The notes below the pieces were generated by a model. That model made no database searches. It was not told the origin of the DNA and saw nothing but the letters and a program-made list of their open reading frames with translations. A program made the translations under genes and the position numbers. DNA of 64,000 nucleotides from Acidobacteriota bacterium (GTDB taxonomy: Bacteria; Acidobacteriota; Terriglobia; Versatilivoradales; Versatilivoraceae), in assembly GCA_022826755.1 (NCBI GenBank), contig JAJDUG010000049.1, positions 62,001-126,000 on the forward strand, given 5' to 3'. Position 1 is the first letter of the stretch; each line of letters starts with the position of its first letter. Shown here one piece after another: positions 12,932 through 52,044 of the stretch.

Positions 12932-13723
12932 TCAGTCATCCCAGGTGCCGCGGGCGTTGATGCCGCCGTCCACGCAGACGTATTCGCCGGTCATGAACGA
13001 AGCCCGATCGCTCACCAGGAAGACCAGCACGTTGGCGATCTCCTCCGGACCGGCCGTTCGGCCCAGGGGGTGAGCCCGACCCAGCTTGGCTCTCAGCTCG
13101 GCCACGTCCCCTCCCGAGGCCTCGAAGGCCTCCTGCTGCAGGGGGGTGTCCACGCCGCCGGGACAGATGGCCAGCACCCGGATGTTGTCGGCGGCAAAGT
13201 CCAGGGCCAGGTTGCGGGTCAAGGAGAGAATGCCTCCCTTGCTGGCCGCGTAGGCCGGGACTTTCTTCATGGATTGCAGACCCTGGACGCTGGCCATGTT
13301 GACGATCACGCCTCCGCCCCGAAGCCTCATCTCCGGAATGGCGAACTTGGACATCAGGAAGAAGCTCTTGAGATTGACGTCGATGATCCGATCCCAGAGC
13401 ACCTCCGGGGTGTCCACGGCATTCACGTAGGAACTCGGCGGCTGGATTCCGACGTTGTTGACCAGAATGTCGACTCCCCCATAGGATTGGGCGGCATAGC
13501 CGACCACCCCGGCCGCCTCCCCGGAGTCGGAGACGTCGGCCGCCGCGGCCTCAACTTCCAGCCCCTCCTCCCCGACCATGGCCAGAAGTTCCCGGTTGGC
13601 GTCGCGATCGATATCGGCAAATACAACCGAGGCTCCCTCCCGGCCCAGGGCCAGCGTGCAGGCCCGGCCTATGCCCTTGGCTCCGCCGGTCACGATTGCC
13701 ACCTTGCCTTTCAACCCGTCCAT
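12932..13723 (-). CDS. Short-chain dehydrogenase/reductase (SDR)
   Basis: A 263-residue classical SDR. The cofactor motif is TGGAKGIGRA at residues 12-21, the structural motif NNVG replaces the common NNAG, and the catalytic Ser-Tyr-Lys triad is in NMASVQGLQ and YAASKGG. The C-terminal FMTGEYVCVDGG is typical. An aspartate after beta-2 (FADIDRD) suggests NAD(H) preference. The ATG has a strong GAGGAGG site. It converges with the FG-GAP gene with 31 bp between stops. The substrate (sugar, alcohol or 3-oxoacyl) cannot be deduced. Confidence 0.88.
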   Translation of the reverse strand: MDGLKGKVAIVTGGAKGIGRACTLALGREGASVVFADIDRDANRELLAMVGEEGLEVEAAAADVSDSGEAAGVVGYAAQSYGGVDILVNNVGIQPPSSYVNAVDTPEVLWDRIIDVNLKSFFLMSKFAIPEMRLRGGGVIVNMASVQGLQSMKKVPAYAASKGGILSLTRNLALDFAADNIRVLAICPGGVDTPLQQEAFEASGGDVAELRAKLGRAHPLGRTAGPEEIANVLVFLVSDRASFMTGEYVCVDGGINARGTWDD

Positions 13724-13785
13724 GGAATGCCTCCTCTCATTGTGAACTCTCCGCCGGCCGAAAGCTGGAATTCTCCCAGGTTGGC

Positions 13786-14112
13786 CCGCCCCCCGCTGCC
13801 GTGCGGATCATTCGAGGGGAAATACCCAATCGCCATTAAAGACGAACCACGAATGAACACGAATTTACACGAATACGAATGGATCTCTATCGGTTTTTCG
13901 TCGTGGCCTATCGGCAACAAGAACCTTGTCCCGTTGATCCGGTAGTCTACCTATTGAACATGGATACACAGGATTGACAGGACGAGACGCTGTGGCACGG
14001 GAAGCTGACTGGCTGCGTTTTCCCTCACCCGAACCCAAGGGACGTTCCCTTTGAGTGGGTCAAGAACATTGTCTTTCTTCGTGTGTCTTCGTGGATAACT
14101 CTTTTTTCTGTA
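13786..14112 (-). repeat. Dispersed repeat, copy A (inverted relative to B and C)
   Basis: Read on the minus strand it starts AGTTATCCACGAAGACACAC, continues through GTTCTTGACCCACTCAAAGG and TCCATGTTCAATAGGTAG, and ends CATTCGTGGTTCGTCTTT followed by CTCGAATGATCCGC and a GC-rich run. The whole stretch matches 57.80-58.14 kb almost throughout, and both ends match 30.65-31.01 kb. It is non-coding and fills most of the 414-bp gap between the SDR and thioesterase genes. Confidence 0.85.
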
Positions 14113-14137
14113 GTTTCAGGCAAGCCGCGCCCCCGCC

Positions 14138-14539
14138 TCACGATTCTTGGGGACGTTTGCTTTCCAGGTAGGAGGCAAAGCGGGGAACCGACACTCGCGC
14201 GCGCTCGTGCCAGCCTTCCGCGATCTTCTCGACTTCGTCGAAGGCTTCGAGCCGAAACCGGATTCTCCGCCCCGCGACCTCGACGATCCGGGTCTTGAGG
14301 GTGACTTTCATGCCCAGCGGCGTCGGGGCCAGGTGTTTCAAGTCCATGGCCGTTCCCACCGTCTCTTCGTCCTGTTGCAGCAACGGGGCGGCCGCCTGAC
14401 GGGAGGCCATTTCCAGCCACATGATCAGGGAGGGAGTCGAGAGCACCGGTTGCACCCCGGGACCCATGAAGCCGATGCAAACCGGCTCGGTGACCACCTG
14501 AGTCTGCTCCAACCGAATATCCTGATCAGGATTCGCCAT
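14138..14539 (-). CDS. FlK-like hotdog thioesterase family protein
   Basis: A 133-residue single hotdog domain resembling fluoroacetyl-CoA thioesterase-like proteins: VLSTPSLIMWLEMASR (helix carrying a catalytic-region Glu), VGTAMDLKHLAPTPLGM with the conserved His, and FDEVEKIAEGWHERARV near the C-terminus. The family usually hydrolyses small acyl-CoA esters. The ATG at 14539 starts the homologous region; the longer open frame upstream is antisense to the SMP-30 gene. The ribosome site is weak. The stop lies close to dispersed repeat copy A. Confidence 0.82.
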   Translation of the reverse strand: MANPDQDIRLEQTQVVTEPVCIGFMGPGVQPVLSTPSLIMWLEMASRQAAAPLLQQDEETVGTAMDLKHLAPTPLGMKVTLKTRIVEVAGRRIRFRLEAFDEVEKIAEGWHERARVSVPRFASYLESKRPQES

Positions 14540-14613
14540 GGCTTCTGGCCCTGGACCGGTGGGAATCACCCGTCCATGGGATGTCCGGTCTTCCCCCGAA
14601 GGCCCGTCCGGTT

Positions 14614-15630
14614 CTATTGGGAGGGCAAATGATATCCCGCTTTCCTGGTCCTGACCCGCTGGAGCTTGTCGCCCGAAGTGATGTAGAGCGTCTTGAGCTC
14701 CTTTCCGCGGCCGAAACCCACGTTGGTCGGCAGATCGGGCGTACGAAGATAATCGAGTTCCTTGCCCTCGGGAGAGTAGACGTAGATACCGGGACGAGTC
14801 TGATCCCGAACCGCCACATAGAGGTTCCCCTCCGCATCCACCACCAGTCCATCGGGTCCGTCCTGCGGGGTGTAGTCCACCAGCGTCTTCCTGAAAGTTG
14901 CCGTTCCTTCGGGACTCAGGTCGTAGGCCAACAGGGCCATCCTGCCCTTGTGGAAGGGAAGATCGGATGAAAACTGGAAGATGTCGAAGTTGCCGTTGTC
15001 GTTGGACACCACGTAGAGCGTCTTCTGGTCGGGCGAGACGCACACCCCGTTGGGTTTTCCCGCATCGGTGATGATCTGGTGAATCGATCCGTCGGGGTCG
15101 ATCCGGTAGACCGCCATCACTCCCTGCTCCATGGGCTCGTGACCGACATAGCGGGGATCGGAGAAGTAAATCCGGCCCTTGAGGTCGATGCTGATGTCAT
15201 TGGGAGCATTGAACTGTCGACCGTTATAGAAATTCCCGATGATCACGCTCTTGCCGGTCTTCATGTCCGTTCGAGTGACACGCCGCCCCCCGAAGTCCGC
15301 CCCTTCGGCCACGATCATGTTCCCCTCGGCATCGAACTTGATGCCGTTGGACATGCCGCTGGGGGATCGATAGACGCTGAGCTCACCGGTCCTGGGGTCG
15401 TACTTCATGATGTGACCCGCCTGCATACCCGCGGTCCGGGTAAAGGTGATGTCACTGAAATAGATGGTGCCGTCGGGCGCGGCTGCCGCGCCCTCGGTAA
15501 GGACCCCGCCGGTGAACAGGGTTTCCAGGGTGTCTGGCTCAAAATAGGCGGACTCGCCGGCGGCAACAACCCACCCGGCGCAATGCACCAAAGCCAGCGA
15601 CAAGAACAGAAACTGAACGGTTCGAAGCAT
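14614..15630 (-). CDS. Exported SMP-30/gluconolactonase family protein
   Basis: A 338-residue protein with a signal peptide (hydrophobic residues 5-23, cleavage likely after VVAA). It is a six-bladed propeller of the SMP-30/gluconolactonase/LRE family. The metal-site regions are LTEGAAAAPDGTIYFSD (Glu), FNAPNDISIDLKGRIYFSD (Asn) and GKPNGVCVSPDQKTLYVVSN (Asp region). The ATG follows GGAGGAAGG. It probably hydrolyses a sugar lactone in the periplasm; the substrate is unknown. It lies 74 bp upstream of the thioesterase gene on the same strand. Confidence 0.87.
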   Translation of the reverse strand: MLRTVQFLFLSLALVHCAGWVVAAGESAYFEPDTLETLFTGGVLTEGAAAAPDGTIYFSDITFTRTAGMQAGHIMKYDPRTGELSVYRSPSGMSNGIKFDAEGNMIVAEGADFGGRRVTRTDMKTGKSVIIGNFYNGRQFNAPNDISIDLKGRIYFSDPRYVGHEPMEQGVMAVYRIDPDGSIHQIITDAGKPNGVCVSPDQKTLYVVSNDNGNFDIFQFSSDLPFHKGRMALLAYDLSPEGTATFRKTLVDYTPQDGPDGLVVDAEGNLYVAVRDQTRPGIYVYSPEGKELDYLRTPDLPTNVGFGRGKELKTLYITSGDKLQRVRTRKAGYHLPSQ

Positions 15631-43849: not shown

Positions 43850-44190
43850 GACACCAACAGAACTCCGACGACCGGAGCCGGGCTGACAGCCGGCGCGATC
43901 TTCATGATCAGCGCAATCCTGCGCCTCTGAGGACAGAACAGGCACTGCGCGGGTTGGCTCAGCTCGATCATCGGCACCGGGACAGGAAGGGGGGCTCGAC
44001 CGGCGCCATTTTACGCCAGAACCGGACCGTGGGTAAACCGACCGCGGGATCACACGATTGGTAGGGTTTTCGCGGGGTATGTCGGGAGAGGCGCTACAGG
44101 ACGTGTATACTTGAGGGAAAAAGCCAACCGCAGGCAGATCGGGCACCACCTCCAGTCAGATTCGTCCAAACTTCTGCTACACTCTTTCTC

Positions 44191-44229
44191 AACGGCAGAT
44201 TCCTATATTCACGAATACGAATTGCCGTT
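44191..44229. repeat. Inverted repeat at island boundary
   Basis: AACGGCA at 44191-44197 and TGCCGTT at 44223-44229, with an inner TATTC-AC-GAATA palindrome. It lies at the composition change and could be a boundary or regulatory hairpin. Confidence 0.45.
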
Positions 44230-44388
44230 CAGTTGTCTAAGAAGACGGAACCAATTCAGAGGAGCCGTCAGGTGACTATTGTCACTGTTGAGATAATAGA
44301 TAGCTTGTATGCCACAATTGTCCCCAAGTACAACCTTCAGCAATCCGTGCGAGCACAGGGCATGGTGGCACTCAATTGCGGTAATTGG

Positions 44389-44402
44389 TCAGGTCAACCT
44401 GA
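44389..44402. promoter_or_regulatory. Short palindrome upstream of island gene pair
   Basis: TCAGGT-CA-ACCTGA lies 22 bp before the ATG at 44424. Its position suits an autoregulatory operator of the toxin-antitoxin kind; this is only positional evidence. Confidence 0.35.
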
Positions 44403-44423
44403 AACTGTTGATGGGAGATATCA

Positions 44424-45026
44424 ATGCCTACTTGTGCAGACTTAGGCAAGCACGAGAATTTAGAGATGTTGGTTGGTCAGCGGGGCATTAGGGGCAAACA
44501 CAATTCACTGGAACAGTGCACCTGGTTACGCTCGGAGGAGAATCCCGAAATTTCCTCTCATCTGCATGAACATGTCTTGATTGGCGTACCCGACATTTCG
44601 GTCGGTGTAGTTGATCGTGTTCGGATGCCGCCCTTTAGAAGAGGATCCTCAACCCGGCTGTCTGGGGTAATCCATGATCTTCACAGATGGCACTTCTTGA
44701 GATCAAAACAGGCTGAAGTTGAAATTAGCAGCGAAAATAGACTACGACGCACATTTCGCACACTTGCAGAACATTGGAGGAGAGATACCCGATTTGTGTC
44801 CCTTGCCAGAAAGAAAATAATGCACCCCGCATACCAGCGCATTATCGGCCTTGGCCCCCAGGCCCTTCCACTTATATTTAAAGAACTCAAGCAGCGACCA
44901 TCTCAGTGGTTCTGGGCACTGGAATGTATAACAGGAGAAGATCCCGCCAGGGATTCCTCGACATTTGCGGATGCTGTAGAACAATGGTTGGCTTGGGCTC
45001 GACGAAACGGATACCTTGATGAATGA
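44424..45026 (+). CDS. Uncharacterised protein with conserved MHPAYQRIIG C-terminal domain
   Basis: A 200-residue protein with AT-rich codon use unlike the flanking genes. The ATG follows GGGAG at good spacing. The first ~105 residues are unfamiliar. The last ~95 match a small uncharacterised family I recall from many bacteria, with FRTLAEHWRRDTRF, KKIMHPAYQRIIGLGPQALP, WFWALECITGEDPA and a Trp-rich end WLAWARRNGYLDE. No catalytic motif. It overlaps the next gene by 8 bp, so the two are made together. A toxin-antitoxin or defence pair is possible but unproved. Confidence 0.7.
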   Translation: MPTCADLGKHENLEMLVGQRGIRGKHNSLEQCTWLRSEENPEISSHLHEHVLIGVPDISVGVVDRVRMPPFRRGSSTRLSGVIHDLHRWHFLRSKQAEVEISSENRLRRTFRTLAEHWRRDTRFVSLARKKIMHPAYQRIIGLGPQALPLIFKELKQRPSQWFWALECITGEDPARDSSTFADAVEQWLAWARRNGYLDE

Positions 45027-45474
45027 TGAAGCTCACATTGGTTACTTGGAGGTTCACTTCCCTAATCTCAAGTCAGCAAAATACGCCGTCACCAGCCCAT
45101 GCGATCCGAGCTACAACTGTGTTGCTTTTGCGTTTGGAGACACCTCGCGTTGGTGGCAGCGAGACCATGTGAAGCCAAACTATTGGCCAGAGGGAATTGA
45201 AGAAGATGACACACTTCATTCCTGGATTAAAGTTGCAGCAACGTGCGGATTCAGAGACACTTCGAACAGCAACCCCGATCCTGAGCAGGATAAGATCGCA
45301 ATCTACGTTAAGGGCGAAGAGCCCCAGCACATCTGCTTTCGGAGCGGAAATGGCCCATGGATGAGTAAGCTTGGGGAGGATGTAGACGTTGTGCACGAAA
45401 CCCTACATGCCTTGGAAGGCAACGTCTACGGAAATGTCAGGATTTGCTTGTCCCGGCAACGAGATCACTTGTGA
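45019..45474 (+). CDS. DUF7689-like uncharacterised protein
   Basis: A 151-residue protein. Its motifs YNCVAFAFGDTSRWWQRD, YWPEGIEEDDTLHSWIK, EQDKIAIYVKGEEPQHICF and a C-terminal WMSKLGEDVDVVHETLHALE plus YGNV match an uncharacterised family (DUF7689-like, from memory). The NC-A, H-C and E-H elements resemble the Cys/His/Asp layout of papain-like or NlpC-like folds, but I cannot confirm catalysis. It overlaps the preceding gene and converges with the 642-residue gene, 27 bp apart. AT-rich like its partner. Confidence 0.7.
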   Translation: MNDEAHIGYLEVHFPNLKSAKYAVTSPCDPSYNCVAFAFGDTSRWWQRDHVKPNYWPEGIEEDDTLHSWIKVAATCGFRDTSNSNPDPEQDKIAIYVKGEEPQHICFRSGNGPWMSKLGEDVDVVHETLHALEGNVYGNVRICLSRQRDHL

Positions 45475-45501
45475 TCCAGCACTATGAACCAGCGTCTCCA
45501 T

Positions 45502-47430
45502 TCAACGACTGTTGAAAGCCACCAATGCTGCATCGGTTCTTGCACAGGAGACCCATAGTTCAGGCACAATATGACATAGGTATCTCACGCATGAATGGAG
45601 CACTTCCCCCTCATCACCCTCGAAATTACCAAATGCCAGTTCCATCAGCCAATTCCCTGAATATTCCCTCCAATCGTCCAGTTTTTCGCGGCTTGCAGCC
45701 GCCATTATGCAAATCCTCACAGTCTCTGTGATCGATAGAGCGCATTGAGCATCGAGCCTGTTTCTGCTCACCACAATTCGTAACTCGTCGGCGAGCGCAC
45801 TACTCCTCGTGACGGCTGCGACAATGGCCAATCCGTTCAATACATTCAGAAGCTGTGCCTTGCTCTCCACGTCTGCAATTCTATAACCGCCACGCTTTAG
45901 AGCTTTTGCCGCCAATTCGGCCTGCTTGGAGTTTACACTGAAGATTAACGCGGAATTGACAAGAGTCGCGAAAGACGATGTTGTAGTTCTTGCTAATCCT
46001 AACTGTGAACCAATTGCCGCCGAAACATCGGCAGGCATGTTGATCGGACACGCCTCAGCACCCTCCAGTGGCCCCGGAAGGTACGGACGGGGAAACTCGC
46101 TGAGAGAGTGAAGGCTTCCGGGACTGGTCCCGAGAACTAAGTCGTGTAATTTCCCTTCCTTGATATTTTTCTCACAAGTCTTGGCAGTGATCATGATGCG
46201 ACCGAAGAACTCCGCTTTCATTTGCGATGCCGTTCCAAAATCAGGACTCCAACGGGGTTCTAAACGCATATCAACGAGTGACTGCAAGAAATGATGGTGT
46301 TTGTGATTATTGGACACCCACTCGCAAAACGGATCAAACTCGACACCAGAATTTACCATCTGACGATTGATCAGAGCCGCCTGTGACAAAGCTGCCAATC
46401 TTCTATAGAAAGGGGGCTCTTGCGACAACAGTCGGAGTCTGGACAGTTCCCCATCTACAAGGAGAAACAACGCTGAGAAAAGCTTGAAATCGCTTGCATT
46501 AGTAGCAACATCGTCGTCACGAATTTCTTGAACGAGACGAATAACGTGCGGTTCAATTTCAGGCCTATCCTGAAGAATGCGAAAGGCTACCGCGATTGCA
46601 CCTAGTTGAGAAATCCTGTCACCATACTCTTCCAAGTATTCAAAGGCACGAACAAGGTCTTCACTTCCAACGTGTTCAACTCTGATTTCAGTTGTCAGCG
46701 CAGAATGTGATGACAGCAACAGGCTATATAAGAAGCCGTCATACGGTCGCCAAGCAGCCAGTTGGTTGAAAAATTGTCTTCCCCTCCCCTCGGCATAATC
46801 TGTGATGGACGTACTTCCGTCGTAGATCCCCACCAATCTCTCAAAATATCTCCGCGAAGGAGGAACAAGTGAGGATACGATGCCTTTTCCATTTGAGATT
46901 TCGTTACGTATTGTCCCTGCTATATGAACCGGTGTATCGCGAAAATCACTGTGAAACTCGTCAACTTCCTCATCTTCAAGGGCCCGTTCTGAAAGTAATT
47001 CCTGCCATACTTGTCGTGCACTGGTGGGCAAATTGACGTCAGATGTGGCCTCATCGAGGCCTTGCAGTCGTGTCTTTCTATCAGGGGAAAGTGCGGTAAA
47101 ATCAGGCAGCACAAGGCTCTGTTTACCATTAAAAATAGCAAGCGTCGGCCGTTCTCCCATATCGGCGTTGCTATTCAAATTCCACTGCCGGCCATCGGTA
47201 TCAGTGACCACGGTTTCCGACACACCTGAAAGAATTTTTCGAATAGCTTCGAACAGTTCACTACGTTGAATAGAAACGCCAGAATCACCGAACGCAAGAA
47301 AAGCGTCCGTCTTAAGTCCATACTCCTTCCGAAAACCAGAGTCCCTTAACAAGGTTTCGCGTAACAACGGAGGAGCAAGCTCCAAAGTCGCCTGCGCCAA
47401 AGAAGACCTGACGTCAGGGCTATTCCTCAT
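45502..47430 (-). CDS. Unknown 642-residue partner of the HNH/PIN protein
   Basis: I do not recognise this protein. It has no signal peptide or membrane segment. An N-terminal ~110 residues look alpha/beta (GYKTDAFLAFG-type stretch, TVVTDTDGRQWNLNSN, RPTLAIFNGKQSLVLPDF). The rest is mostly helical, with an HKHHHF cluster near residue 370. The ATG overlaps the stop of the upstream giant gene by four bases (ATGA), so the two proteins are produced together and may form a complex. Codon use is AT-rich compared with the flanks. No nuclease, helicase or NTPase motif is visible. Confidence 0.75.
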   Translation of the reverse strand: MRNSPDVRSSLAQATLELAPPLLRETLLRDSGFRKEYGLKTDAFLAFGDSGVSIQRSELFEAIRKILSGVSETVVTDTDGRQWNLNSNADMGERPTLAIFNGKQSLVLPDFTALSPDRKTRLQGLDEATSDVNLPTSARQVWQELLSERALEDEEVDEFHSDFRDTPVHIAGTIRNEISNGKGIVSSLVPPSRRYFERLVGIYDGSTSITDYAEGRGRQFFNQLAAWRPYDGFLYSLLLSSHSALTTEIRVEHVGSEDLVRAFEYLEEYGDRISQLGAIAVAFRILQDRPEIEPHVIRLVQEIRDDDVATNASDFKLFSALFLLVDGELSRLRLLSQEPPFYRRLAALSQAALINRQMVNSGVEFDPFCEWVSNNHKHHHFLQSLVDMRLEPRWSPDFGTASQMKAEFFGRIMITAKTCEKNIKEGKLHDLVLGTSPGSLHSLSEFPRPYLPGPLEGAEACPINMPADVSAAIGSQLGLARTTTSSFATLVNSALIFSVNSKQAELAAKALKRGGYRIADVESKAQLLNVLNGLAIVAAVTRSSALADELRIVVSRNRLDAQCALSITETVRICIMAAASREKLDDWREYSGNWLMELAFGNFEGDEGEVLHSCVRYLCHIVPELWVSCARTDAALVAFNSR

Positions 47431-50400
47431 GTCGTCTCCCCATTGTCCAACAGTTGATCAACGGCTACTGCGACCTGTCTTTTGTACTGGGCGACAATCA
47501 GCGCATACAGATCGGGAAATTGTTCTTTAACAGGGATCAATACTCTATCTTGTACCCAGTTCCAGTATGCATCTCTGACTTCTTTTGGGGCATTGAACTG
47601 CAGGATGAGCATCATCAGGATATGCACACTTCGCCCGCTCTTCACAATGTTGATTCCATTCTCCGGATCGAGGCTTTGAACCCAACCACGAATGTCCAAC
47701 TGGTCTACAAGCCAGTCAGAGCGGGCGGTTACACTGGAGAGATCATCGTCGGCCATCCAAATGGTCTGCAAGCTTCTGATGAATACTTGCAAGGTCGTAA
47801 CAAGCCAAGGAGCTTCTTTTGGAATTTGTAGCCAGTCACTCATTCGAACACGCAAAAGACTTTCGCGAATGGCTTTCAACTCGGCCGTTTCGATTACCCT
47901 ACCGTCCTGGATCTGCGAGGCTGAAAGATAAGACACGAGTTCAACCTCTCCAACAGGCACCAGAAAATATCCCGCACGACGAAGTTGTGTTCTGTACTCC
48001 AACTGGTTTTCAGCAGTAATGGCACGAGCGGACGTCAATGCAACTAAGAGATCCAATGTTGAATGCATCGGCACCTGTGAACCATCATTGTCAATATAAG
48101 CATGCTGATTGATGAACCTGTCGTCTGAAATAATTGCATCGCAGTCACCCACCAGAGCCAATATCCCTAAACAAGGATGCTCGGGCATCGATTTCTCAGC
48201 CAACTTGTCCGTATAGCGTTGTTTACCAACCTTGACTTTCCCAGATTCTATCCGGGACGCAAGACCAGATCGTATGCGTTCCAACGCATCGATGACCCTT
48301 CCAGAAGTATTTTCGTAAGTGATGAGTTGATCAGCTTCTGAAAGGCTTCTTGGAGAAACAAAGGGCCTGAAACCCGCAGCTTTTAGTTTTTCGAATATCC
48401 CGAGATGGAGAAAATAGGTTACAGCCAAGTCGCTCAAATACAGGATTGCGCCATCATTAATTCCAGGTTCGGTCGGCCAAGGCTTCTCTTGAAGCTGCAA
48501 GAAGGCAAGTGCTTTTTTCGCTTCTTCAATGGTGAGCTGACCTTTTTCTCTTAGCTTGGCGACAATAGATTGACAACTAAAAAGCACAGCAGAGTGCGCC
48601 GTCAAGTCGGCTTCTTCCTCCATCAGAGAAGACAGTCGATGAACCGGAGACGGACAGACAACGATGCGTTGGATGTCATCATCGGCATCGATTTCTGCTT
48701 CTGCGATAAACATAGCCAACTCATCGCCAACCTGGGCTGAAAGGTCACCATCTGCCACAGTCGTCGAAACGAATTTCTCCAGCAATTCATTCGCGAGCAG
48801 ATCGCGTAAGAGATTGGCGTCCCTGATGCGGCTCGGTTGGTGAAATTTGGTCTTTTGCTTCTCCTCAAACAGCCACGCCATAGTCGAGTGGGGTACGTAT
48901 ACCCGCTCGAATGCTTCGAATACTTTGTCCAACAGTCCTAGAAAACTCAAAGTGAACAACGCAGTAAGATCAATTCCAATACTCTTGCTGGAATTCCAAG
49001 AAACTAGTTGACGCTTTCCGCTGTACGCTGATAACGGTACCCTGCCTCTAGGGTCTCTCTCCGATAGGTTTGAATATGCAGGAAACAGCATTAAATATAC
49101 CAACGCCTTGTTGAGAGATTGAGCAGCGACAAACATGGGTACATCGCCACAGCTCAACAACTGCCACGTCTCAGATTCTCGACGATCCCATTCAATTTTG
49201 CGGTCAAAGAAATCCTTCAGAGTCACTCTTTGAATTGGGCCATTGTCTTCAGACAGCACATTGGCCCTTTGAATCCACTGAGAGACGGCAGGATTGTCGT
49301 CCCAACCAGCGCTCATGGCTAATGTGTATGCAGCACATAAGAGTTCGGCATCTTTACTACTCTTGCTTGCTGCGGCAAAGAGGAGTTCCTTGGCAAGAGG
49401 GGAATCTAACTGAAAGGCAAGTTGAGCCGTTCCCATCAAATCTTGAGCGCTCCTTGTGGATCTTTGCTCAAACTCTCTAGCAACATACTTAGAAAGGATG
49501 TTCATATCACCGAGAGCAACCCCGAGATGAACCTGCAAAGTCCGATAGCTTGGATCCTCCCAATACTCATCAAGTTTCGTCAGTTCGGAGCGAGCCTGAA
49601 GTAGAGCGCCTTCATAATATAGTGCCCACGCGTAAAGCAACTTCAGGCACTTGGATCGTTTCAGGAGACCAATGTTCGATTTGAGGAATGTGACAAGCTG
49701 TTCAGTTTGCCTTGCTTTATCTAGTGCGTTCGCAAATCGCTCAGCATCGCCGACGTAACTTGTCCTTTTGAACAGAATTTCTCCATATTTGCAAAGACCA
49801 TCCCAGTCTTGTGCGCTTTCGAGTTTTTCGACCAGAGCTTCTAGGTCGCTAAGCAAGTTCGTATTCTTGAAAAGCTCTTTGAGAGTCTCAATTGGATTCG
49901 TACCCTCTGCCTCCCTGATTCTAGTTCGGATACGTCGTTCGTCGGTTGGAGATAATCCATGTTCTAGCAGAAGCTCAAGACAATCAGTTGCGGTTTCAAT
50001 CTGTCCCGCATTTAGGTGTGTTTCGATCCGGAAAACGAGCAGCGACTTTGCATTTATATACTTGGATAGCTCGTCATAGTGCTGGTCAATGTAGTTAGCC
50101 GCGGCTTTCGGATTCTTCTGCCTGAAGCAGAGAGCAAAGCGAGCCTTTGCTGTGTCTAGTGTGATTCCCCCGTGCAACGCGATTTGTCGGTCGATTTCTT
50201 TCTCAACCGCTTCCAGATCCAACTTGATTCCGAATTGAACACCGAGGGGGACGAGGTGAAGAGCAGATTTGGGATCACGAAGACTGCTCTTAAGCCGTTC
50301 CCGCCCATGGGTGGCAGTTGCGGGGACTTTCAACTCAATCCACAGCGCGTACTCGTCAGCTACTTTCGCCGCCTCAGCGCAATTCAGTCTTCGGGCGACT

Positions 50401-51527
50401 TTGGCCGCGTCCATAAAGTGTTCGTATGCTTTTCGTTGGGCAGCAAGCGAGTGCGAGTCGGACGCCAGTGGAAAGTTTGCTGCAATCAACGGCAACTGGT
50501 TGCGCACAAGAGAACGAAACTCTTCTGGCACCGTACCCAATAGACGTGTCATCGCAATCATGTAATGAAGGATCGGCGTCTGAACAAAATCCTGATCGGA
50601 AACCGCATCAACTACTTTCCTGGCTTCGTCCCAATGGGAAATCTCAAGCAGAAGTCTCAAAAGAACATATTTGCCGTCAGCGTCTAAGTCACCAGCACCG
50701 AACCCGACAGCCTTCAACCACGCTACGGCTCCTTCTTCACGTTCATGTTGTGCGACAATCATGAGAGCGGCGGACCGCGAAAGCGGTGATTCAATGTCAA
50801 TAAGAACATTAAGTGCTGCTTTCTTATCTCCCTTCTGCGATGCAATAAAGGCACTTGCGATTTCGATGCCAGAGCCATTTCCTAATCTCATCGCAAGGTT
50901 CAAGAATTCTTCTGCTTTCTCCATTTCACTCGCAGAAGACAATAGCCGTGAGCACCAGGCTAGCGCCCATCCCCTTAGATCATCACTACCCCCGGAAAGT
51001 TCTCCTTTGATTAATTTTCTCGCAAGCATCAGTGAGGAGCGGACGTGGTCGTATCCAAAGAAGAACCGTGATTGACGGAGAGTTTGAACGTCATGTTTAA
51101 TTTTCTGGTCCACTAGAGCCGTGGGAAAGAGAGGAGAAAAAAACAAATCCTGCTTTATGGATGTCGAGTCGTCGGCGCGTCGCATCAACATTGCTGCTTG
51201 ATGTGTCTCTTTCCACTTTCTGAGCAAATCCGGTGGATAGTCTTCAGGTTGGCCGTCCACCAAAGCGTGATGATTCGGGCAAAGCAAAATCAGATTATCG
51301 GGAGAGTCGAGATCTTCTTCGGGAGGTTTGGGCTTTCCTCTTGGACCATACTGACTGACGGCATAGATGTGACATATTTGACCTGTAACGGTAGCGTGTG
51401 ACTTTTCCGAAGCGGGCGCAATGAGAGATATGGTGCAATTTGGATACGCGCACTGGTTTCCACTTAATGCGAATAAGGTCTTGATAGTTTTTACTGAGTA
51501 GTTTCGTGACAACGTTCTGTTCGACAC
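47427..51527 (-). CDS. Giant HNH nuclease / helical-repeat / PIN-like protein
   Basis: About 1366 residues. Residues 1-125 form an HNH endonuclease domain: zinc ligands in NQCAYPNC (C26, C31), ICHIYA (H53) and LILLCPNHHALVD (C83, H86, H87), then YPPDLLRKWKETH. A long helical region of TPR-like pairs follows to about residue 830. Near residue 850 begins IGIDLTALFTLSFLGLLDKV and YVPHSTMAWLFEE, and near 1130 CDAIISDDRFINQHAY with MHSTLDLLVAL; together these resemble the two halves of a PIN-type RNase fold with an insertion. The GTG at 51527 is my choice (GGAAACACGA upstream, no ATG available; TTG at 51608 is the alternative). Probably a nucleic-acid-targeting defence protein. Confidence 0.72.
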   Translation of the reverse strand: MSNRTLSRNYSVKTIKTLFALSGNQCAYPNCTISLIAPASEKSHATVTGQICHIYAVSQYGPRGKPKPPEEDLDSPDNLILLCPNHHALVDGQPEDYPPDLLRKWKETHQAAMLMRRADDSTSIKQDLFFSPLFPTALVDQKIKHDVQTLRQSRFFFGYDHVRSSLMLARKLIKGELSGGSDDLRGWALAWCSRLLSSASEMEKAEEFLNLAMRLGNGSGIEIASAFIASQKGDKKAALNVLIDIESPLSRSAALMIVAQHEREEGAVAWLKAVGFGAGDLDADGKYVLLRLLLEISHWDEARKVVDAVSDQDFVQTPILHYMIAMTRLLGTVPEEFRSLVRNQLPLIAANFPLASDSHSLAAQRKAYEHFMDAAKVARRLNCAEAAKVADEYALWIELKVPATATHGRERLKSSLRDPKSALHLVPLGVQFGIKLDLEAVEKEIDRQIALHGGITLDTAKARFALCFRQKNPKAAANYIDQHYDELSKYINAKSLLVFRIETHLNAGQIETATDCLELLLEHGLSPTDERRIRTRIREAEGTNPIETLKELFKNTNLLSDLEALVEKLESAQDWDGLCKYGEILFKRTSYVGDAERFANALDKARQTEQLVTFLKSNIGLLKRSKCLKLLYAWALYYEGALLQARSELTKLDEYWEDPSYRTLQVHLGVALGDMNILSKYVAREFEQRSTRSAQDLMGTAQLAFQLDSPLAKELLFAAASKSSKDAELLCAAYTLAMSAGWDDNPAVSQWIQRANVLSEDNGPIQRVTLKDFFDRKIEWDRRESETWQLLSCGDVPMFVAAQSLNKALVYLMLFPAYSNLSERDPRGRVPLSAYSGKRQLVSWNSSKSIGIDLTALFTLSFLGLLDKVFEAFERVYVPHSTMAWLFEEKQKTKFHQPSRIRDANLLRDLLANELLEKFVSTTVADGDLSAQVGDELAMFIAEAEIDADDDIQRIVVCPSPVHRLSSLMEEEADLTAHSAVLFSCQSIVAKLREKGQLTIEEAKKALAFLQLQEKPWPTEPGINDGAILYLSDLAVTYFLHLGIFEKLKAAGFRPFVSPRSLSEADQLITYENTSGRVIDALERIRSGLASRIESGKVKVGKQRYTDKLAEKSMPEHPCLGILALVGDCDAIISDDRFINQHAYIDNDGSQVPMHSTLDLLVALTSARAITAENQLEYRTQLRRAGYFLVPVGEVELVSYLSASQIQDGRVIETAELKAIRESLLRVRMSDWLQIPKEAPWLVTTLQVFIRSLQTIWMADDDLSSVTARSDWLVDQLDIRGWVQSLDPENGINIVKSGRSVHILMMLILQFNAPKEVRDAYWNWVQDRVLIPVKEQFPDLYALIVAQYKRQVAVAVDQLLDNGETT

Positions 51528-52044
51528 TCGTGTTTCCGTGTTTGCGTTCCAGTCTAACTCGCTTCCCGGTTCGTGCCAACCTACCCAACTATCTGCCAGA
51601 TCGAGCAAGCCACCGTGCGTACTCTTGTGCCACGCTAGTCAATTCTTTATTCGAAACAAGTGGCCGTTAGCTACCAATGGAATTTGGAGTTGTTCGTACA
51701 GCCGGAACTTTTCCGAGCTATCGGATACTGAACAATCAACTTGTTCCCGGAAAAACAATCCCCAACTCCGCTGGAGAGTCTGCACTTGAAAACAAGCGCA
51801 GGGGCGGGAGTCCGCTGTTTCGGATGGGCTGTACTATTGGGGGTCTGATGGGGTGAAGCGTGAGCTTCGCCTCTTGACGGCTTTGCGTTGGTTGGGGCCC
51901 AATTCTGTTTGGGGGCTGACCCCGAACTACTAACTTCGGCCAGAGTGTCCCAGCCCCTGCTAGCCTTAACCGGGTGGCTTTGCTTCCCGCGACTTAAGGA
52001 GAACCGTCGGGGCAGTCTTTACCAACCGTGCGAGTCTTCGTCGA
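51528..52044. other. Right flank of the AT-rich island
   Basis: No credible gene. Composition returns to GC-rich by about 51.9 kb. It must contain the promoter of the leftward HNH gene; TTGACT on the minus strand near 51640 is the only -35-like hexamer I see, without a matching -10. A small GAAGC/GCTTC hairpin lies near 51855. Confidence 0.5.

Follow-up and report, generated by a model that had tools for sequence, protein, structure and literature searches.

Gene pair and acquired insert

The window analysed here is a stretch of 64,000 nucleotides from an Acidobacteriota bacterium (GenBank assembly GCA_022826755.1, contig JAJDUG010000049.1, positions 62,001 to 126,000), and it contains two overlapping genes on the minus strand. 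On sequence evidence, this locus matches the predicted TPR–GreA/B-C–PIN conflict system (Kaur, Burroughs, Iyer and Aravind, 2021; PMC8195603), with the same domain set distributed over two genes. Gene 1 (47427..51527, minus strand) encodes a protein of 1366 aa made up of an HNH domain, TPR-like helices, a helix-turn-helix (HTH) domain, a tandem PIN region and C-terminal helices, as defined by the open reading frame, Pfam matches and 43 homologues. It starts with GTG; the alternative start, a TTG at 51608, would give 1393 aa. Gene 2 (45502..47430, minus strand) encodes 642 aa, with a permuted GreAB-C domain assigned by Pfam and an all-helical tail. The two genes share an ATGA stop/start overlap (47427..47430, minus strand), and both reading frames and their junction are as described in the initial annotation, which was made from the window sequence alone. 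The 4 nt overlap recurs in 10 homologous loci besides L071, and nine have an 8 nt overlap.

The operon is carried by an insert of 8.0 kb (44049..52037, no strand assigned) with a GC content of approximately 48 %. The GC content of the two-gene region is 47–50 %, compared to 59–66 % (about 63 %) around it, consistent with its earlier description as AT-rich. The insert is absent from all six genomes of the same genus. It is flanked by an Smr-domain gene and a LexA-like gene, both of which are present in all six and lie close together in those genomes that have both on one contig. In the five same-genus genomes compared at the DNA level, homology to the window ends at approximately 44048 and restarts at 52022–52041, and approximately 8.0 kb is therefore inserted in place of approximately 95 bp. 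A scan of the insert ends found no tRNA and no long flanking repeats marking them, and Rfam RNA and promoter/terminator scans gave nothing informative at the locus.

The nearest homologue, L029, is in a Methylomirabilis metagenome-assembled genome (MAG) from another phylum, and its gene 2 product (the partner protein) is 66 % identical, whereas the partner proteins of the Acidobacteriota relatives L052 and L054 are only approximately 40 % identical. This fits horizontal transfer, and the two-gene cassette is horizontally acquired. Relative to L029, both genes are under purifying selection, with proportions of nonsynonymous (pN) and synonymous (pS) differences of 0.23/0.19 and 0.68/0.61, respectively, and a ratio of nonsynonymous to synonymous rates (dN/dS) of approximately 0.16–0.18. 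With this ratio and few deviant positions, decay to a pseudogene was rejected. Carriage by a phage or virus was also rejected, as no relatives were found in phage records or viral contigs.

Domains of the two proteins

The N-terminal domain of the gene 1 product (aa 14–116; 51180..51488, minus strand) is a Cap5-like HNH nuclease domain, which is the exchangeable effector of the system. HNH_2 (PF13391) matches aa 50–89 with 26.2 bits, over the Pfam cut-off of 21. The HNH motif noted initially is indeed intact, with the catalytic H53 and N78 together with C26, C31, C83 and H86/H87, and H53, N78, C26, C31, C83 and H87 are conserved in all nine HNH-type members aligned. The segment also matches PDB entry 9om4 (E 6e-19) and the Cap5-type entries 7rwm and 7rwk. 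A TPR-like helical region follows (aa 165–769; 49221..51035, minus strand), which aligns end to end in homologues. Its TPR_19 score of 24.1 bits is slightly below the Pfam cut-off of 25, but the collinear homologue L019 scores 27.6 bits, over the cut-off. An HTH_upst_double_PIN domain (PF24407, aa 770–839; 49011..49220, minus strand) is assigned by Pfam with E 3.9e-20 and 72.4 bits against a cut-off of 27.

Two PIN modules lie downstream, PIN1 (aa 843–968; 48624..49001, minus strand) and PIN2 (aa 1020–1192; 47952..48470, minus strand), both defined by PIN-TPR-GreABC (PF20698) and by conservation. In gene 1, PF20698 scores 60.3 bits against a cut-off of 27.8, covering aa 1033–1144 and a second stretch, and the PIN2 segment alone gives E 2.1e-10. 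In an alignment of 40 homologues, from which all PIN conservation counts were taken, the family matches PIN1 in 38 and PIN2 in 40. The AlphaFold model of aa 750–1366 has a mean predicted local distance difference test score (pLDDT) of 88.5 and a predicted template modelling score (pTM) of 0.84, and each module in it has its own beta-alpha-alpha-beta start. The segments IGIDLTALFTL (aa ~850) and CDAIISDDRF (aa ~1129) had been read as the two halves of one PIN fold about 280 residues apart. Their spacing is as given, but they come from two domains, as each belongs to a separate PF20698 module with its own beta-alpha-alpha-beta start, and a single split PIN was rejected on this ground.

PIN1 keeps D853 (D or E in 40/40) and E889 (39/40) but the distal Asp pair is absent. 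PIN2 retains D1135 (40/40), D1136 (39/40), R1137, D1159, E1083 and R1086. However, its first Asp, present in 39/40, is replaced here by S1032, whose codon (AGC, 48432–48434, minus strand) could become an Asp codon only through two or more base changes; the adjacent D1033 is retained. Neither module of this copy thus holds a complete acidic active site within one domain, which makes an RNase step doubtful for this copy, to judge from its residues, though PIN1 and PIN2 may compose an active site jointly. Comparison of the PIN1 and PIN2 profiles with one another gave a weak match. Separately, the host genome contains 31 matches to PIN (PF01850) and its genus mates 22–40, a large VapC-like set.

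The product of gene 2 had initially been considered to lack any recognisable domain. This was not borne out, as it contains a Permuted_GreAB-C domain (PF24388, aa 48–97; 47140..47289, minus strand) with E 6.9e-10 and 38.8 bits against a cut-off of 27. In the model of L032, a fused homologue, the corresponding segment is rich in beta structure. That model, of 1195 aa, spans the PIN modules and GreAB-C as a confident single chain (pLDDT 92.1, pTM 0.86). The tail after GreAB-C is helical and approximately 500 aa long, and gene 2 is conserved over its whole length among homologues. At two positions of gene 2 that are conserved in 43/44, the copy in the window differs (E280A and R555S).

Linkage, fusion and effector exchange among homologues

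A single-protein query of genome contigs found no homologue, but an alignment of partner proteins used as query recovered 47 homologous loci, all in named genomes and together covering at least 11 phyla. All 44 assessable loci have the partner linked to the large gene, namely 37 with split genes, six with a fusion, and L048, where the partner lies beside a fragment; L036, L043 and L067 are cut by contig ends and were not assessable. In the split loci, the core gene is directly upstream of the partner gene. Co-occurrence of the pair, a check proposed with the initial annotation, was thus seen in every assessable locus. The fused loci are L032, L033, L039, L041, L045 and L047 (6/43 close homologues), and L020 is a further case. 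In L032, the HNH, HTH, PIN and permuted GreAB-C domains are in one chain of 2014 aa; in L020, the gene 1 profile covers aa 206–1387 and the gene 2 profile covers aa 1408–2020 (E 1.9e-32). Four large genes, those of L042, L048, L062 and L071, appear frameshifted or broken. E. coli genomes searched with the Klebsiella indica pair yielded no close relative.

Because both genes form one polypeptide in six loci, gene 2 is best described, from this comparison of sequences, as the detached, GreAB-C-bearing C-terminal third of an archetypal single protein. The locus had been proposed to be a two-component nuclease system with the partner as sensor or regulator. The pair behaves as one unit and has a nuclease effector, but the partner is this C-terminal third rather than a separate sensor of unknown type. 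The same data bear on whether the pair could be a toxin–antitoxin system in which the 642 aa protein neutralises the HNH/PIN protein. Although an overlapping gene pair of which one member encodes nuclease domains would suit such an arrangement, the partner is over 600 aa long, conserved throughout, and fused to the large protein in 6/43 homologues with at least five fusion/split changes, and the toxin would be first in order. We regard this explanation as extremely unlikely.

Nine N-terminal types were distinguished on the core, namely HNH, alpha/beta-hydrolase (DUF676), PNP_UDP_1, calcineurin-like phosphoesterase, SMEK, two-transmembrane-like, short, and two unknown. On the partner-protein tree, these types need a minimum of 10 changes, compared to a mean of 22.5 after shuffling, and at least five changes are needed between fused and split forms. 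It follows that the core is constant, that effectors can be exchanged on it and that splitting is a rearrangement that recurs. A restriction nuclease that senses sequence or modification, with the HNH domain cutting phage DNA directly and the remainder recognising the target, would account for the HNH domain, for the HTH domain PF24407 and for the restriction genes found near homologues. However, the same core bears hydrolases, phosphorylases and two-transmembrane-like modules, which are unable to cut DNA, and the role shared by the core is therefore unlikely to be recognition of DNA targets for cutting. This makes a restriction nuclease very unlikely here.

A further possibility, proposed by Kaur et al. 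(PMC8195603), is that the core is the main weapon, with GreA/B-C in the secondary channel of RNA polymerase, the PIN domains cleaving the extruded transcript and the effector serving as a back-up suicide device. The conserved acidic residues D853, E889, D1135 and D1136 are in keeping with this, as are L033–L035, L064 and L046, which have a short N-terminus and no recognisable effector. However, the distal Asp pair is missing from PIN1 and the first acidic position of PIN2 is occupied by Ser here, hhalign gave no similarity to GreA C-domain profiles, and in most members the effector has been repeatedly replaced, not lost. We consider it unlikely that the core is the main weapon.

Two observations concern loci with other effector arrangements. 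L031, L033, L034, L035 and L064, in which no effector was recognised, start with a short conserved motif, KQSISxGxxSxNxxxGxxI, possibly an adaptor recruiting effectors in trans. In L070 and L071 (9940–10905 in each), a separate HNH protein of 321 aa is encoded directly downstream of a hydrolase-type pair, as if it were a second effector in trans.

Relation to known systems and proposed mode of action

In the system predicted by Kaur et al., found mostly as standalone genes, the TPR, GreA/B-C and PIN region is constant and is combined with any one of 13 variable effectors, among which is HNH (PMC8195603). The locus described here shares with it a variable N-terminal effector and the PIN and GreA/B-C domains, with a TPR-like region between them, as well as a wide, patchy distribution, and PF20698 bears the name of the system. 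The initial remark that no named system with this exact pair was known is thus superseded. In place of the single polypeptide of the archetype there are two overlapping genes here, tandem PIN modules with an upstream HTH, and a permuted GreAB-C on a separate gene followed by the helical tail. The system is known by prediction, and the main text of PMC8195603 contains no description of a two-gene form. We treat this layout as a matter of gene organisation and not as a ground for exclusion.

Likeness to other known systems is partial. The HNH subtype and its ICHI/AHI...NLILLC..HH motif resemble Cap5 (HNH-SAVED; PDB 7rwk and 7rwm) of the cyclic oligonucleotide-based anti-phage signalling system (CBASS). 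However, the remainder of the protein is unrelated, SAVED was not found with Pfam or NCBIfam, and matches to SAVED proteins in PDB and PADLOC are confined to the HNH segment; CBASS was rejected in the absence of SAVED. Likewise, the proposed PADLOC check did return PDC-M68A for aa 7–116 (E 7.8e-34), but this match spans only positions 2–111 of 253, again the HNH segment, and the similarity goes no further. DefensePredictor DS-3 is a single protein with a PIN split between the N- and C-terminus, for which PIN-dependent phage defence with no antitoxin was validated experimentally (PMC13092281). Gre domains are not mentioned in the main text of that paper, and we liken DS-3 to the present locus by description only.

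Because the N-terminal domain is exchanged on a constant core, a sensor or gate combined with an effector is the best reading. The pair is probably (at roughly two chances in three) a member of a split two-gene TPR–GreA/B-C–PIN immune system in which a sensing and gating core unleashes an HNH DNase. Gene 1 would supply the exchangeable HNH DNase and the constant TPR–HTH–tandem-PIN core, and gene 2 the constant permuted GreAB-C and helical part. Most likely, the products of both genes come together in a complex equivalent to that formed by a single chain in the fused relatives. The core would hold the HNH domain silent until a phage-derived signal, perhaps met at RNA polymerase through GreA/B-C as Kaur et al. 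proposed (docking at the polymerase, with the PIN cleaving the transcript; PMC8195603), frees or clusters it. The HNH domain would then cut DNA indiscriminately and halt the infection, in an abortive defence. Domain content, linkage, fusion, effector exchange, horizontal acquisition and purifying selection were computed directly. We infer from them complex formation, the HNH domain as the killing activity and an abortive outcome. It is speculative that RNA polymerase is the docking site or trigger, and likewise that the PIN pair of this copy acts as an RNase. A more specific version, in which the separately encoded GreA-like subunit docks on RNA polymerase, a degenerate tandem PIN acts as the gate and not as a nuclease, and phage takeover of transcription releases whichever effector occupies the N-terminus, seems to us quite unlikely.

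The proposal that the locus is a defence system draws on the mobile insert and on restriction and defence genes near homologues. L023 has HsdR-like and SIR2 genes as neighbours and L018 an Eco57I-type methylase, and matches to DrmD-like, type I and type IV restriction and methylase proteins were found among the neighbours of homologues. These support an immune role. Relatives also occur on conjugative plasmids, e.g. Agrobacterium pAtN33_94.

Several points weigh against an immune system of this type. The tally of defence-related neighbours has no background control, the rest of the insert, which contains just the DUF7689 pair described below, yielded no recognisable known defence gene, and our literature search found no experimental study of any TPR–GreA/B-C–PIN member. 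S1032 replaces a near-invariant Asp. Foldseek searches of the PDB with the window model and the fused L032 model gave no PIN or GreA match (best E 0.03 for the window model; matches of both models alpha-solenoid or meaningless), though small domains may be hidden in large multi-domain queries. Comparison by hhalign with 21 VapC-type PIN domains and 26 GreA C-domains, taken from relatives, gave nothing convincing above reversed controls, and the PIN homology suggested initially was recovered through PF20698, in both modules, but not through VapC-type profiles. As neither Foldseek nor hhalign gave an independent match, it is from Pfam and the literature that the names PIN and GreA/B-C are taken.

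An advantage of the split form is that deletion or mutation of GreAB-C can be confined to its own gene, leaving the nuclease untouched. Whether the core is a universal trigger could be learned from the 43 natural pairs, in which one core is combined with at least nine N-terminal types. Should GreA/B-C prove to contact RNA polymerase, the system would be a form of immunity that keeps watch on transcription.

The surroundings of three homologues and of the window operon are recorded here. In a Vicinamibacteraceae MAG (L066:9987-17901), an HNH-type pair adjoins genes for a 1747 aa Eco57I/N6-methylase protein and a DrmD-like helicase, a neighbourhood like that of the defence island system associated with restriction–modification (DISARM). 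The alpha/beta-hydrolase pair of L015 is bracketed by two transposase-like modules of two genes each (417 and 258 aa; 142–2165 and 13496–15519), apparently identical and oppositely oriented. An integrase-like gene lies beside one of these modules, and the carrier of the pair resembles a composite transposon. In Leptolyngbya (L026:139-10281), a one-gene caspase-type relative is beside multiubiquitin, ThiF and DUF6527 genes. The insert in the window also contains a second unit (44424–45474, plus strand), convergent with the operon, which encodes a 200 aa protein without a family and an overlapping 152 aa DUF7689 protein (PF24738, E 3e-30). No relative of the latter was found in plasmids. This unit is possibly a further accessory or defence pair.

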